The notes under the pieces were generated by a model. It was given only the letters and a program-made list of their open reading frames with translations, searched no databases and had not been told where the DNA came from. Shown here piece after piece: positions 42,224-49,455 of a DNA stretch of 64,000 nucleotides (positions are counted from its first letter, which is position 1; each line of letters opens with the position of its first letter). The position numbers and the translations under genes are program-made. Location: NCBI RefSeq assembly GCF_004299785.2, contig NZ_CP036246.2, positions 558,001-622,000 on the forward strand, given 5' to 3'. This DNA comes from Arcobacter porcinus (GTDB lineage: Bacteria > Campylobacterota > Campylobacteria > Campylobacterales > Arcobacteraceae).

Positions 42224-43651
42224 ATGAAAAAAATAATGACAACAACTGGTGGAAATCCAATTTCTGATAATCAAAATTCAATAACAGCTGGTGAAAGAGG
42301 ACCTGTCTTATTACAAGATTATCAACTTATACAAAAACTAGCACATCAAAATAGAGAAAGAATTCCAGAAAGAGTGGTTCACGCAAAAGGAAGTGGAGCT
42401 TTTGGAGTTTTAGAAATAAATGAAGATATATCAAAATATACAAAAGCAAAAGTACTACAAAAAGGTGAAAAAACAAAACTTCTATTAAGAATTTCAACTG
42501 TTGCAGGAGAAAAAGGTGCAGCTGATGCTGAAAGAGATGTAAGAGGTTTTGCTCTTAAATTTTATACAAAAGAGGGAAACTGGGATTTAGTAGGAAATAA
42601 TACACCTGTATTTTTCGTAAGAGATGCAATAAAATTCCCTGATTTTATACATACACAAAAAAGAGATCCACAATCAAACTTAAGAAGTAACACAGCAATG
42701 TGGGATTTTTGGTCTTTAAGTCCTGAAAGTTTACACCAAGTAACAATTCTTATGTCAGATAGAGGATTACCAAAATCATTAAGACATATAAATGGATATG
42801 GTTCGCATACATATAGTTTAATAAATGCAAAAGGTGAAAGATTTTGGGTTAAATTCCACTTTAAAACTCTTCAAGGAATTGAAACTATTACAAATCAAGA
42901 AGCAGAAGCTATTGTTGGAAAAGATAGAGAGTCAAATCAAAGAGATTTATTTGAGAATATTGAAAAAGGAAATTTTCCAAAATGGAGTTTTGAGATTCAA
43001 ATAATGACAGAAGAAGAGGCGAAAATATGTAGCTTTAATCCATTTGATTTAACTAAAGTTTGGCCACATAAAGAGTATCCAATGATTAAAGTTGGAACTA
43101 TGACTTTAAATGAGAATCCAAAAAATTATTTCCAACAAGTTGAACAAGCTGCATTTAGCCCATCAAATATTGTTCCAGGAATTAGTTTTTCACCTGATAA
43201 AATGTTACAAGCAAGAATATTTTCATATCCAGATGCTCAAAGATATAGAGTTGGAACACACTATGAGATGTTACCTGTAAATAGACCAACTGTTGAGGTA
43301 AATACATATAACCTAGATGGAAGTATGAATTTTGAAATAAAAGAGCCTACAAAAGCTTATTATGAGCCAAATAGTTTTGATGGAGCAGTTGAAGATAGTA
43401 GTTTTGCTGAACCAGATTTAGAAGTTGGAAATATTGCACAAAGATATGACCATAGAGTTGGAAATGATGATTTCTCTCAACCAAGAGCTCTATTTTTACT
43501 TATGAATGATAATCAAAAGAATCAACTATTTAATAATATAAAAGATGCTATGAATGGTGTTCCACAAGATATTATAAATAGACAAGTTGAACTTTTTGAA
43601 AAAGTTCATCCTGATTATGCAAATGGAGTTAGAAAAGCTTTAGGATTATAA
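42224..43651 (+). CDS. katA: Monofunctional haem catalase
   Basis: A 475-residue small-subunit catalase. Distal haem His53 lies in [13 protein letters not shown], the distal Asn in [10 protein letters not shown], and the proximal Tyr in [14 protein letters not shown]. It removes hydrogen peroxide. The ATG has a strong GGAGG site. The next gene begins 1 base after its stop and encodes an ankyrin protein, as in Campylobacter. Confidence 0.97.
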
Positions 43652-43652
43652 T

Positions 43653-44129
43653 TTGCAAGTAAGTGAAGAAGAATTAAAAAGATATGAAGAGCTTCAAGTA
43701 ATAGCTTTAAATTTCGCAAGAGAAGGAAAAACTGAAGATTTAAAAGCTATGATTGAAGCTGGAATTAGTGTAGATTTGAGTGATCATAAAGGAAATAGTT
43801 TATTAATGTTGGCTACTTATAATGGAAATTTAGAAACTACAAATATGCTAATTTCAAAAAATGCAAAAATTGATAAAAAAAATGATAGAGGACAAACACC
43901 ACTTGCAGGTGTTTGTTTTAAAGGAAATCTAAAAATTGTTCAAGCTTTAGTAGAAGCAGGGGCAAATATAGATGAAGATAATGGTTTAGGAACTACTGCA
44001 ATATTTTTTGCAAGTATGTTTGGACATACAGATATTGTAAAGTATCTTCAAACAAAAAAGAAGTCTAATTTAAAAGATAAAATATATATTATTTTTTCAA
44101 AATTTGTAAGATTCTTTAGAAGAAAATAA
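43653..44129 (+). CDS. Ankyrin-repeat protein partner of catalase
   Basis: A 158-residue protein with ankyrin repeats (about 40-135): GNSLLMLATYNGNLETTNMLISKNAKID, GQTPLAGVCFKGNLKIVQALVEAGANID, and GTTAIFFASMFGHTDIVKYL. TTG start with AGGA 7 bases upstream. In C. jejuni an ankyrin protein next to katA (Cj1386) is needed for full haem loading of catalase; the same is probable here. The tail ends in basic residues (KFVRFFRRK). Confidence 0.85.
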   Translation: MQVSEEELKRYEELQVIALNFAREGKTEDLKAMIEAGISVDLSDHKGNSLLMLATYNGNLETTNMLISKNAKIDKKNDRGQTPLAGVCFKGNLKIVQALVEAGANIDEDNGLGTTAIFFASMFGHTDIVKYLQTKKKSNLKDKIYIIFSKFVRFFRRK

Positions 44130-44170: not shown

Positions 44171-45823
44171 TTACTCTTTATTTAAACTATTTTTTATAAC
44201 AACTGGTACAAAAAACATTGAAACTACATAAGAGATTAAAGTTCCACCAATTAAAGCAACTCCCAATCCACCAAATACAGCATCATTTGCTATTAAAGAA
44301 CTTGCAAATACAAGAACTAAAACTGTAAGAATAATAGGCTTTGATCTTGTAGCAGCTGCTTTTGCTATTGCTTCATTTGTATTTAGATTTTGTTCTTCTT
44401 TTAACTGTTTTGCAAAATCTATGATTAATGTAGAGTTTCTTGAGTTTATTCCAATTAAAGCAATAAACCCAATAAGGCTAGTTGCAGTTAAATAGAAAAT
44501 ATCTTCTGTAAAAATATCCATAATAATATGAGCAATAATTACTCCAATAATTGATACAAAACTAGATAAAACAATAGCTCCACTTAGAGCAAAACTTTTA
44601 TAATAAATTACCATTAGTAAAAATATTAAAACTAATGCAATAATAAATGCTCCACCAAGATCAATAAATGTATCAATAGTAACTTTTAATTCACCATCAA
44701 AAATCAAATCAAATCTTTCGCCATTTACTTTATCAACAAAAGCTAGATTTAGCATATTAGTTTTTATAACATCATAATCTTTGCTAAACTCTTTTAAAAG
44801 TTCATTTCTTGAATCCAAAAGAGGGTAAATTTGACTATCATTTGAAGTTTCTGCAATTACATTTATTAGAGGATTCATATTTTTTGAACTAACTTCTGGC
44901 TCTTTTATAGTTTCATTTATAGAAACAAGTTCAGAAATACTTATCATTTGACCTTTGTTATTCATTATTTTTAAAGAACTAAGTTTAGAATTTAGTGCAG
45001 ATTTTGAGTTGTTTGATAGATTTTTACTATCATTTAATCTTAAAAATATAGGAATTTGACTCTCTTTATATCTATTATTTACAACAGCTACACTCATTCC
45101 TTCAAAAGCTATATATAAAGTTGCTTTTAGATGTTCTAAATCAACTCCACTCATTATTGCTTTATTGTTATTAATATTTAAACTAAAAACTCTATAATCT
45201 TCATCTGCAAGAATATCAATATCTACTAAAGTATTCTGATTTTTAAATACATTTGCAATTTTTTGTGCAAAATCTCTTCTACTTTGGAAACTTACTCCTC
45301 CATAAACTTCAGCAACCAAAGATGCTAAAACAGGTGGACCAGCTGGAATTTGAATAAACTTTATAACAGCATCTTCATTTTTACAAGAGTTTAAAACTTC
45401 TGTTCTTAGCTTATTTACAAGATTGTAACTCGTAATATCTCTATCTTTAAATCTTTTTATATTTACCATAAGTTCAGCTTGGCTCTCTTTGTATTTTAAA
45501 GAGCTTTGTTTCACAAGACCTGCAAAGTCTATTGGCTGACCTTGAGATAAAAAAGCCGAAATATTTGTTATGTTTTCCTCTTTTTGTAAAGATTTTGTAA
45601 TACAATTTACAAGCTCTTTTGTCTGATATAAACTTGAGCCATCTTTTAAATCTAAATATATAGAAAAAGAATCAGAGTCTTTATCAGGGAGCATTTTTGC
45701 TTTTAAAATCTCACTTGGAAGGCTTAAAATAGATAATATAAAAAGAACAAAAGTTGAAAATAGTACAAGAAAAGTTTTTCTTTTACTATTTAAAATATCT
45801 AAAACTATTTTCTCTATTTTCAT
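44171..45823 (-). CDS. RND efflux pump, C-terminal half
   Basis: The 550-residue product equals the second half of an RND permease: TM7-like segment (about 17-37), large periplasmic loop (about 40-385) with the IPAGPPVLASLVAEVYG motif, and TM8-12. The cytoplasmic TM10 position that is Lys940 in AcrB reads Arg462 (GINSRNSTLIIDF). Its ATG lies in the stop of the N-terminal half (ATGA) and an AAAGG site is 7 bases before it. Together the two halves total 1069 residues, the usual size of one RND protein. Confidence 0.85.
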   Translation of the reverse strand: MKIEKIVLDILNSKRKTFLVLFSTFVLFILSILSLPSEILKAKMLPDKDSDSFSIYLDLKDGSSLYQTKELVNCITKSLQKEENITNISAFLSQGQPIDFAGLVKQSSLKYKESQAELMVNIKRFKDRDITSYNLVNKLRTEVLNSCKNEDAVIKFIQIPAGPPVLASLVAEVYGGVSFQSRRDFAQKIANVFKNQNTLVDIDILADEDYRVFSLNINNNKAIMSGVDLEHLKATLYIAFEGMSVAVVNNRYKESQIPIFLRLNDSKNLSNNSKSALNSKLSSLKIMNNKGQMISISELVSINETIKEPEVSSKNMNPLINVIAETSNDSQIYPLLDSRNELLKEFSKDYDVIKTNMLNLAFVDKVNGERFDLIFDGELKVTIDTFIDLGGAFIIALVLIFLLMVIYYKSFALSGAIVLSSFVSIIGVIIAHIIMDIFTEDIFYLTATSLIGFIALIGINSRNSTLIIDFAKQLKEEQNLNTNEAIAKAAATRSKPIILTVLVLVFASSLIANDAVFGGLGVALIGGTLISYVVSMFFVPVVIKNSLNKE

Positions 45824-47379
45824 TTTTTAACCTTTAAAATTTTTCTTACTAAATAAGGAGTAAATGCATAAGCAACAAATAGTGAAACAATCAGTGAAAT
45901 AGGTACAAAAACAGGAAGTGGATGCATAAATTCTCCCATCATTCCACCAACAAAGAACATAGGAACAAAAACTAAAACAATAGCAATTGTTGCAATATTT
46001 GTAGGATTACCTATCTCATTTGTAGCGTTTATAGCTATTTGTTCAATATCTAAATGAGGATTTTGTACTTTATGTCTATGAATATTTTCAATTACAATAA
46101 TAGCTGCATCAACAAGCATTCCTAAGGATACAATAAGTGCAAAAAGTGTGATTCTATTTACTGTTTCTCCAAGTAAAAAACCTATAAACAGAGTCAAAGA
46201 CAGAATCATAGGAACAGTTAAAGATACTATTAAAGCCTCTTTAAATCCAAGAGTAAATATTAGTAAAATAAAGATTATGATGATTGAAGTTATTAAATCT
46301 TTTATTAAAGAGTTTACAGCAATATTTGCACTATATCCATCATCTCTTGTGATTACATATTTAATATTTTTACTTAATAAAGGCTCTTTTATGCTATCCA
46401 TATATTCGAATATTTTTTCATTTATAGTTACACTATTTGCACCTTTTAGTTTTGATGCCATTAAAGTGATTTGTGAATACTCTTCAAAAGTTCCATCATC
46501 TTTTTTTGTATATAAATATGCATCTTTTTTATTTTGAATTTCATATGATTTTGTGATTTTTGCAATATCTTTTAAATATATTGGAGTTGAAAAGTTATAA
46601 GATATTATAAGATTTTCCAAATCCTTTACACTTGTTATTGCTTGTTCGATTTGCATAACAACCAAAGAGTTATCACTTGTATTTGTACTCATATTTGGAG
46701 TATTAAAGTTTAGTGCTTCAACCTGTTTTTTTACATATGCCAAAGCAATGTTATAAGAGTTTAATCTATTTATATCAACTTCTATATTGTATTGCTCTTT
46801 TTTTTCTCCTTTTAAATCAACCATTGCAACATCTTCAATTTTGTTTATTTTTTTTGCAATACGGCTAACTTCTTCATATAACTCTTCTTTATTTAAAATA
46901 TCAATACCATCTTTTTTTTCACTATAAAAAGCTATTGTAGCAATAGGAATTCCTGTATCAATATCCATTGTTTTTATAATTGGTTGCATAGCATTTTTTG
47001 GCATTAAATCCATATTTCTCATAACTTGATCATATAGTTTTAAATTTGATTGTTCTTTATCTTCTCCAATAAAAAACTGAACTTGAACAATTCCAACGCT
47101 ATCTCTTGCAAAAGAGAAAATATGCTCAACACCTTTTATCTCTTTTATCTTTTTTTCAAGTGGCTCAATAATAACTTTTTGAATTTCACTAGCTTTTGCA
47201 TCTGGAAGTGCAACTATTACAACTCCACCACTTACTTTTATTTGAGGATTCTCCTCTTTTGGCATAAGTAAAAGTGAAAAATATCCCAAAATCAAAATAA
47301 ACAGAGCCAAAATGAAAGTTAAAGGATGGTTTATAAATGTTTGAGCAATTCTTCCTGCGATATTTAAATTTCTATTCAT
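45820..47379 (-). CDS. RND efflux pump, N-terminal half
   Basis: The 519-residue product equals the first half of an RND permease: TM1 (about 21-39), periplasmic porter loop (about 40-350), and TM2-6. The TM4 proton-relay motif reads LVDAAIIVIEN: Asp424 is present but the second Asp is Ala425, as in CusA-type pumps. It stops after TM6, in the cytoplasmic linker before TM7 (VRKILKVKK). The stop TGA overlaps the C-terminal half ATG. Part of the tolC-adaptor-RND operon, exporting small molecules or metals; substrate unknown. Confidence 0.85.
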   Translation of the reverse strand: MNRNLNIAGRIAQTFINHPLTFILALFILILGYFSLLLMPKEENPQIKVSGGVVIVALPDAKASEIQKVIIEPLEKKIKEIKGVEHIFSFARDSVGIVQVQFFIGEDKEQSNLKLYDQVMRNMDLMPKNAMQPIIKTMDIDTGIPIATIAFYSEKKDGIDILNKEELYEEVSRIAKKINKIEDVAMVDLKGEKKEQYNIEVDINRLNSYNIALAYVKKQVEALNFNTPNMSTNTSDNSLVVMQIEQAITSVKDLENLIISYNFSTPIYLKDIAKITKSYEIQNKKDAYLYTKKDDGTFEEYSQITLMASKLKGANSVTINEKIFEYMDSIKEPLLSKNIKYVITRDDGYSANIAVNSLIKDLITSIIIIFILLIFTLGFKEALIVSLTVPMILSLTLFIGFLLGETVNRITLFALIVSLGMLVDAAIIVIENIHRHKVQNPHLDIEQIAINATNEIGNPTNIATIAIVLVFVPMFFVGGMMGEFMHPLPVFVPISLIVSLFVAYAFTPYLVRKILKVKK

Positions 47380-48106
47380 CTATTTTTTCCAAATTTTCAT
47401 CTAAAGATAGAGTTATTTTTGCATACATAGCTGGATAAATATTAAACTCTTTTTTATCAAAAGATATTTTAACTGCAAAAGAGTGAGTTGAGTTCATATA
47501 ATTTGGATAAATAGCAGTAATAATACCATCTGATTTGAAATTTTGAGAAGCTATCTCTATTTTAACTTTTTTCCCTACATTTATATTTTTTAAATTTGAT
47601 TCAGAGATATTTGTTTTTATAATTAAAGAGTCTAAATCAGTTAAAATAAGATGAGGCATTCCTGGAATTGCCATTTCAGCTTCTTTGATTGATTTTTTTA
47701 TAAGCATTGCATTATTTGGTGCTTTTACCTTAAGATAGTTATAGTTTGCTAAAAGTTCAGCTAGTTTAGCTTTAGCTGTAATAAGATTTAGTTCAAGTTG
47801 TTCATAATCAAACTTTGAAACTAAATCTTGTTCTAAAAGCTCTTTATATCTTTTTAAATTTATCTCTAAGTTTGAAATTTGGCTTCTAATTATTTTTTCA
47901 TTATATGAAATATCTGTTGGATCAATCTCATAAAGTAATTGACCTTTTTTTACAATATCTCCTTCATTTACATATACTTTTGTAATATATCCCATCATTC
48001 TACTTGAAATTATTTTTTCATTTTCTGATTCAACAACTCCATCTAGCTCCAAGTATGAAGCAAAAGAGCTAATGAAAAATAAAAAAACTGCTAATAAATA
48101 TCTCAT
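47372..48106 (-). CDS. RND periplasmic adaptor, short form
   Basis: A 244-residue membrane-fusion protein with signal peptide (about 1-18), lipoyl half-domains (MMGYITKVYVNEGDIVKKGQLLYEI and LKVKAPNNAMLIKKSIKEAEMAIPGMP), a coiled hairpin between them, and a beta-barrel domain. It ends at about residue 244 without the usual membrane-proximal domain, so it is shorter than AcrA-type adaptors (about 370-400). Overlaps tolC by 4 bases and the RND N-half by 8. Confidence 0.88.
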   Translation of the reverse strand: MRYLLAVFLFFISSFASYLELDGVVESENEKIISSRMMGYITKVYVNEGDIVKKGQLLYEIDPTDISYNEKIIRSQISNLEINLKRYKELLEQDLVSKFDYEQLELNLITAKAKLAELLANYNYLKVKAPNNAMLIKKSIKEAEMAIPGMPHLILTDLDSLIIKTNISESNLKNINVGKKVKIEIASQNFKSDGIITAIYPNYMNSTHSFAVKISFDKKEFNIYPAMYAKITLSLDENLEKIDE

Positions 48107-49455
48107 TTGTTATCCTTAATTAAATTTATTCCTAAAACCTTTTTTAATTTTGCTAATGCTAGTGATGTTTCATATCTAGCATTTAAAAGCATTGTTTGAC
48201 TTTTTCTATAATTTGTCTCTTGAGAAAGTAGAGTAGTCATAGATACAAGTCTATTTTTATATTGTAATTTTGCTTGTTCTAAAACATCATAAGCTAAATT
48301 CAAAGCTTCAAAATAAGCTTTTTGTTCATCTTGTTTTGAATTAAAATTTAGTAATGCTTCTTCTAGCTCTAATTTAATACCATCATCAAGTTTTTGCATA
48401 TCAAGTTTTGATTTTAATAATTCAAGTCTTGATTTCTCAATTTTACTTGATCTACTATGGTCAAATAAAGTAAGATTAATCCCTAAAAAAGCAAGATAAT
48501 AATCTTTGTCGCTTGAAGTTGTGAAATTATTATCATTATAACCATACTCTAATCTTGTAAAAACATTTGGATAATAAGAGCCTTGATTTGCTTTTATATT
48601 TTTATTATTCGCTTCAATACTTATATTTACTAAAGCTTTTTCATCTCTTTGTAAAAGAGCCATTTCATAAAGTTCATCAAAGTTTAGTAGATCAAAATAG
48701 ATATTTTTAAGAGATTCAACATCACTTATATTATTGTTTCCACTTAAAAACTTAAGATAAGAAATAGCTAGTTTAAAATTATTTTTTGCTTTTAGAAGTT
48801 CTGCTTGAAGTGATAGTTTATATACTTTTGCTTCATTTACATCAAGTTTTGTAACCAAACCATTTTCATGAAACTTTTTTGCACCTTCATATATAAACTC
48901 TACTGTACTATTCGCTCTTTCTAGAGTTTGTACAAAATCTTTTGCCAAAACTGAACTATTGTAAGCTTTTAAAACTTCATATTCAAGATTTTTCTCATCT
49001 AAATTATATAAATATTCATTTGCTTTTTCTTGAAGCTTTGTAATGTCTTTATAGTTACTTAAGGCAAAACCTGTAAAAAGTGGAAGATCATAAACTATTT
49101 TTGTATTAATATTTGTTCTTGAATTTGGATAGTTTAAATCTTTTGGTGCTGTATCAATACCATCTGGCATCTGTGTAAACCCAAAATCTCTAAAAGTAGC
49201 TTCTCTACTTGATAGCTTTGAGTTAAACACATGACCTGCGTGATTTGTACGACTTATTTCACTTGAAATATATAGTTTCCCTGTTTCAATACCAATAATC
49301 TCATCTTGGCTCTTCTTTGAAATATCGATATCAATCTCTCTTTTTTGAAGCTCTTTACTGTTATTAATTGATTGTTTTAATAACTCTTCAAAAGAGATAG
49401 TTTCTGAATAAGATATTCCTAAAAAAAGAACTAAAGAAGTAAATATTTTCTTCAT
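48103..49455 (-). CDS. TolC-family outer-membrane efflux protein
   Basis: A 450-residue TolC-like protein with signal peptide (about 1-18) and the duplicated long-helix pattern (coiled segments around 160-245 and 345-440, ending with TTLLSQETNYRKSQTMLLNARYETSLALAKLKKVLG). It would form the outer-membrane channel for the RND pump. First gene of the operon, after a good promoter. Confidence 0.9.
   Translation of the reverse strand: MKKIFTSLVLFLGISYSETISFEELLKQSINNSKELQKREIDIDISKKSQDEIIGIETGKLYISSEISRTNHAGHVFNSKLSSREATFRDFGFTQMPDGIDTAPKDLNYPNSRTNINTKIVYDLPLFTGFALSNYKDITKLQEKANEYLYNLDEKNLEYEVLKAYNSSVLAKDFVQTLERANSTVEFIYEGAKKFHENGLVTKLDVNEAKVYKLSLQAELLKAKNNFKLAISYLKFLSGNNNISDVESLKNIYFDLLNFDELYEMALLQRDEKALVNISIEANNKNIKANQGSYYPNVFTRLEYGYNDNNFTTSSDKDYYLAFLGINLTLFDHSRSSKIEKSRLELLKSKLDMQKLDDGIKLELEEALLNFNSKQDEQKAYFEALNLAYDVLEQAKLQYKNRLVSMTTLLSQETNYRKSQTMLLNARYETSLALAKLKKVLGINLIKDNK

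Follow-up and report, generated by a model that had tools for sequence, protein, structure and literature searches.

The stretch of Arcobacter porcinus DNA analysed here (the window; 64,000 nucleotides, positions 558,001 to 622,000 of contig NZ_CP036246.2) encodes an RND efflux permease, one long protein in nearly all bacteria, in two consecutive open reading frames, which raises the question of whether the gene is truly divided, misread, switchable or decaying. The N-terminal half (519 aa; 45820–47379, minus strand) comprises TM1–TM6 with the PN1/PN2/DN periplasmic region, and the C-terminal half (550 aa; 44171–45823, minus strand) comprises TM7–TM12 with the PC1/PC2/DC region. The two genes share an ATGA stop/start overlap (45820–45823) within the TM6–TM7 cytoplasmic linker. 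On the same minus strand, a ribosome-binding-site-like AAAGG (45831–45835) stands 7 bases upstream of the second ATG, and an A6 tract (45823–45828) lies at the junction. The two frames, the overlap, the AAAGG and the A6 tract were confirmed exactly as an earlier sequence-only reading had placed them; that reading proposed a true split with a separate second start, and cautioned that an indel or a slippery, phase-variable tract might be responsible.

The split pair closes a string of minus-strand genes in the order TolC / adaptor / RND-N / RND-C. The gene of a TolC-family outer membrane protein (450 aa; 48103–49455; PF02321, E = 8.6e-36) overlaps by 4 bases that of a short periplasmic adaptor (244 aa; 47372–48106; TIGR01730); the adaptor gene in turn shares 8 bases with that of the N half. 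Since neighbouring genes overlap (4–8 bases), the four were taken to form one operon. Two ordinary full-length RND permeases are also present in the same genome. On the plus strand, a catalase gene (42224–43651) is followed immediately by a gene for an ankyrin-repeat protein (43653–44129), convergent with the pump operon.

Profile searches identified the two products as parts of one permease. The N half matched positions 1–492 of the 1021-position ACR_tran profile PF00873 (E = 8.7e-76, 255.9 bits) and the C half positions 518–1016 (E = 2.2e-43, 148.6 bits), both above the gathering cut-off of 28 bits. Because the covered ranges complement each other, the two ORFs are complementary halves, as had been claimed. 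A simple hydropathy scan gave six peaks, and thus six predicted membrane helices, for each half, so that the single 12-TM polypeptide typical of PF00873 is replaced by two chains with six peaks apiece. The tripartite operon typical of the AcrB/AcrD/AcrF family is present, with adaptor and TolC genes at 47372–49455. RND_permease_2 (NF033617), the NCBIfam subfamily nearest to the N half, gave scores of 243.7 and 107.7 bits, under the cut-off of 1250; against the CusA/CzcA heavy-metal profile (TIGR00914) the N half scored 128.2 bits, under the curated cut-off of 701, and a single TM4 Asp is the sole resemblance of the split permease to CusA/CzcA. SecD_SecF_C was not the best match (E = 2e-4 versus 8.7e-76 for ACR_tran). 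Structure models of the N and C halves reached a pLDDT of 40 and 43.5, too poor for use, because the three-row alignments behind them held too few sequences.

Related genomes carry the same split, not just within the genus but across the family and a large part of the order. The C half was found in 31/31 genus genomes, none with internal stops, and in 87 of 104 Arcobacteraceae genomes; no fused copy was detected in these 87 (the matches at E ≤ 1e-40 included no open frame of around 1000 aa). Across the phylum, 163 of 397 genomes were positive at E ≤ 1e-30, about ten of them belonging to a fused branch. Among named genomes, a scan yielded just two close relatives. Junctions were read one by one in DNA from about 70 loci; 64 of these were split pairs, from 10 family-level groups. 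The N gene immediately preceded the C gene in all 64, and the C-half start lay between −29 and +12 bases from the N-half stop, most commonly at −1 (21 pairs) or −4 (17 pairs). All three relative frames were used by the two halves (45, 12 and 7 pairs). A strong Shine-Dalgarno sequence (GGAG/AGGA/GAGG) preceded the C-half start in 52/64 pairs, compared with 77 of 2114 internal in-frame ATGs (3.6%), the first figure being somewhat favoured by the use of this signal in picking the start where several candidates were available.

These junctions bear directly on the idea that the A6 tract holds an indel, made in sequencing or assembly, which has broken what is really one continuous frame. The position of the junction in an A-run invites that suspicion, but the run is unconserved: the nearest relative, L039 (about 96% identical), keeps the ATGA junction and has CTAAGAGATGA in place of A6, and in other relatives the first half ends in TAG or TAA, with an ATG of its own opening the second half in a different frame. 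The split is shared by complete single-contig genomes with differing junction sequences, and relatives, which the sequence-only reading had itself named as a test, are divided rather than continuous in frame. An artefact of this kind has a negligible chance of being the explanation.

The same junctions speak to a phase-variable or programmed-frameshift gene, in which slippage on the A-tract would toggle between split and fused protein. An A-run does occur at the stop codon here and in some genus members (L040, L041, L006 and L007), but it is missing from L039, L042 and most others, and the second start is served by a separate Shine-Dalgarno sequence. Since the frame relation of the halves varies by species, a conserved frameshift site cannot serve. 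We consider such switching very improbable; the strain analysed here may still make slippage product at a low level. The varied junctions, together with the absence of A6 in L039, mean that the indel, phase-variation and conserved-frameshift readings all fail to explain the split. The caution attached to the sequence-only reading can therefore be set aside, and its main proposal holds: relatives are broken at the same linker position, with a signal for a separate second start in most of them.

In the 21 relatives aligned for display, the junction fell at an identical protein position between TM6 and TM7. The TM6–TM7 linker measured 37–39 residues in fused homologs versus a median of 31 in split pairs, with both ends counted. 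A His-rich stretch is kept in some split pairs at the site where the fused forms have one. In L084, L087, L092 and L093 the N half ends in a His-rich tail (e.g., LHHHHHHFQKGD), and fused homologs have a shorter His-containing linker; these tails may bind metal or may just be remains of the linker.

Since Campylobacterales relatives are split at the same point, the arrangement is an old inherited two-part design, neither a sequencing error nor a broken gene. When a gene that is usually whole turns up in two pieces, it is often decaying, and the two ORFs might on that ground be the remnants of a dead pump. Selection argues otherwise: both halves are under purifying selection, with dN/dS (NG86, four comparisons) of 0.04–0.13 for the N half and 0.06–0.27 for the C half, the value of 0.27 coming from one comparison; a fifth comparison was saturated. 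Sequence motifs are conserved in 63/63 split homologs, and the split persists over many genera and families. A pseudogene is thus next to impossible, and we conclude that the window holds a genuine two-gene RND permease, the product of a permanent natural fission in a family of pumps whose usual description is that of a single chain.

The age of the fission was approached through fused relatives. Seven fused loci from the same order were inspected (L099–L105: six f5-family genomes and one other, G442; frames of 1077–1181 codons), three further f5 genomes with similar E-values being left out. More distant fused members came from annotated plasmids of Polaromonas, Flammeovirga and Pseudanabaena, three records from other phyla. 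In an 80-row concatenated tree, all split proteins fell on one side of a single branch (SH-aLRT 100); in the N-only and C-only trees the split branch received UFBoot 100 and SH-aLRT 100 in each, and the two main subclades of split proteins agreed between them. Fused copies nested in the split clade were sought among the genomes searched. As all other RND proteins used are fused, a single fission is most parsimonious, and the trees indicate one old event in an ancestor within Campylobacterales. This goes beyond the sequence-only reading, which had neither this phylogenetic spread nor the fused outgroups. The survey beyond Campylobacterota comprised plasmid records only, so independent fissions elsewhere are possible. 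Overall, the split is almost certainly both ancient and functional.

Fused subfamily members (f5, G442 and the Polaromonas, Flammeovirga and Pseudanabaena plasmids) share with the split proteins an N-terminal AGKLA..F motif and the TM10 Arg, and are identical to the split pair over the whole length at about 40% (f5) and 33% (Polaromonas) of positions. Unlike the split pair, they are single chains of 1060–1181 aa with the linker intact and an adaptor that has a membrane-proximal domain.

Residues of the proton path were compared at positions which we take to be 407, 408, 940, 971 and 978 in AcrB numbering. The D407 position (TM4; D424 of the N half) was Asp in 63/63 split homologs, and the position of the second TM4 acid of multidrug RNDs, D408, was Ala in 56/63. 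In the C half, the K940 position (TM10; R462) was Arg in 63/63, the R971 position (TM11; K495) Lys in 61/63, and the T978 position (TM11; T500) Thr in 63/63. The AcrB set is thus partly matched, with charge retained at most positions; because D408 is mostly Ala and R971 is Lys, the proton path differs from that of AcrB. As the N chain supplies the acid and the C chain its partners, neither half would carry protons alone if the mechanism is AcrB-like.

The case for a composite protomer rests mainly on this division of residues between the chains, which also counts against the view that the halves are independent half-size transporters, acting as homo-oligomers or with one of them no longer a transporter. 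Each half does have six TMs and a full periplasmic region, like the half-size SecD and SecF. However, a solitary half occurred in 0/64 loci, the main subclades agree in the N-only and C-only trees, and the conserved charged residues that lie opposite one another in AcrB fall partly in N and partly in C. Independent function is accordingly improbable, and the most probable reading, to which we assign a probability of about 0.86, is an obligate two-chain permease working as a composite N3C3 pump.

The two genes go back to a single ancestral gene for a 12-TM permease, which an ancestor within Campylobacterales divided one time only, at the TM6–TM7 cytoplasmic linker. The halves have since been kept adjacent as tightly coupled genes, with stops and starts overlapping or nearly so and usually with a Shine-Dalgarno sequence of the second gene's own. 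The ribosome may re-initiate or start anew at the second ATG, so that similar amounts of N and C would be made side by side in the membrane. One N and one C half would then form one AcrB-like protomer and three such pairs the pump; the stoichiometry is probably (N+C)3. At the subunit interface, the TM4 Asp of N is predicted to lie opposite three residues of C, the Arg of TM10 and the Lys and Thr of TM11, and protons would drive export to TolC as in other RND pumps. By analogy with the nearest solved relatives, MdtB and MexK, the pump probably exports something hydrophobic or amphiphilic and not a metal ion.

It is less likely, and in our view improbable, that the halves can be separately made, assembled or even exchanged. 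If they can, a genome that carries two split pairs could combine the N half of one with the C half of the other into pumps of altered substrate range, and the assembly of halves could be a control point absent from one-chain pumps.

The usual description of an RND drug-efflux permease is that of one 12-TM chain derived from internal duplication. Permeases of the AcrB/MexB/MexK/MdtB type (PF00873, HAE-type) are homologous to the split pair over its whole length, have in common with it the TM4 VD motif, a TM10/TM11 basic residue and the Thr, and are likewise encoded together with an adaptor and a TolC protein. Their known members are single 12-TM chains, whereas the split pair consists of two 6-TM chains, in which the second TM4 Asp is mostly Ala, K940 is replaced by Arg and R971 by Lys. 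SecD and SecF are a 6+6 TM pair of the RND superfamily, fused in some bacteria, and so offer another 12-TM RND-type unit that exists as two 6-TM genes or as one, like the split and fused permeases. They belong to another family with another job, protein export, and their Pfam match to the window proteins is marginal. MdtBC and MuxBC are pumps formed from two adjacent permease genes, but each of those genes encodes a full 12-TM permease, unlike the half-size genes of the window. The name NolGHI spells out several genes, as in a split pair, and in fact denotes a single gene (PMC8277102).

No description of a split or half-size RND permease was found in the part of the literature covered by our search. 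In the A. butzleri RND paper (AreABC/DEF/GHI) we found no mention of a two-gene permease, and the Nitratiruptor metal-stress paper gave no usable evidence on split-pump genes. In this clade the two repeats have become permanently separate subunits; both are under selection, and they are widespread in an order to which vent bacteria as well as emerging gut pathogens (Aliarcobacter) belong. Nature thereby offers a system in which to study what contacts keep the halves joined, what purpose the TM6–TM7 linker serves, and whether the halves can be separately assembled or mixed. There is also a hazard for annotation: in plasmid records both halves are labelled 'efflux RND transporter permease subunit', and they may pass for fragments or be counted as two pumps.

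The adaptor of the window scored 100.9 bits against TIGR01730, above the curated cut-off of 94.9, with a match spanning positions 15–249 of 322; the C-terminal membrane-proximal domain is absent. An adaptor match was obtained in 54 loci, and complete adaptors of split operons measured 237–273 aa (n = 53). Those of the fused homologs extend to position 320–321 of the profile and are 344–347 aa long, apart from one cut at a contig end. A tie between the fission and loss of this domain looked exact, but was rejected as unspecific: adaptors of 232–245 aa also accompany L126, L127 and L128, fused RNDs from this order that belong to a different subfamily, so domain loss is not specific to split pumps. 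The membrane-proximal domain is present in all RND-associated adaptors according to one review (PMC8277102), and another review (PMC4446572) states the same, 'without exception', for adaptors whose transporters have large periplasmic domains. The adaptors of split operons and of some fused pumps of the same order are exceptions to this published rule.

At the split pairs L050, L054, L081, L097 and L098, no recognisable adaptor gene was present in the fetched stretch. A TolC gene stands immediately before the N half in L050 and L054, and a TetR-type regulator in L081 and L098.

Two split pairs, each annotated as two permease subunits, were found on plasmids: pSULKU01 of Sulfuricurvum kujiense (SULKU_RS15365/15360; L118) and a plasmid of Sulfurovum mangrovi (LN246_RS15260/15265; L119). 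The two-gene unit may therefore travel between strains as one piece. In another genome, two C halves of equal score and identity lie about 7.2 kb apart on one contig (G330:C73, 12260–13903 and 19485–21128), probably through tandem duplication of the split operon.
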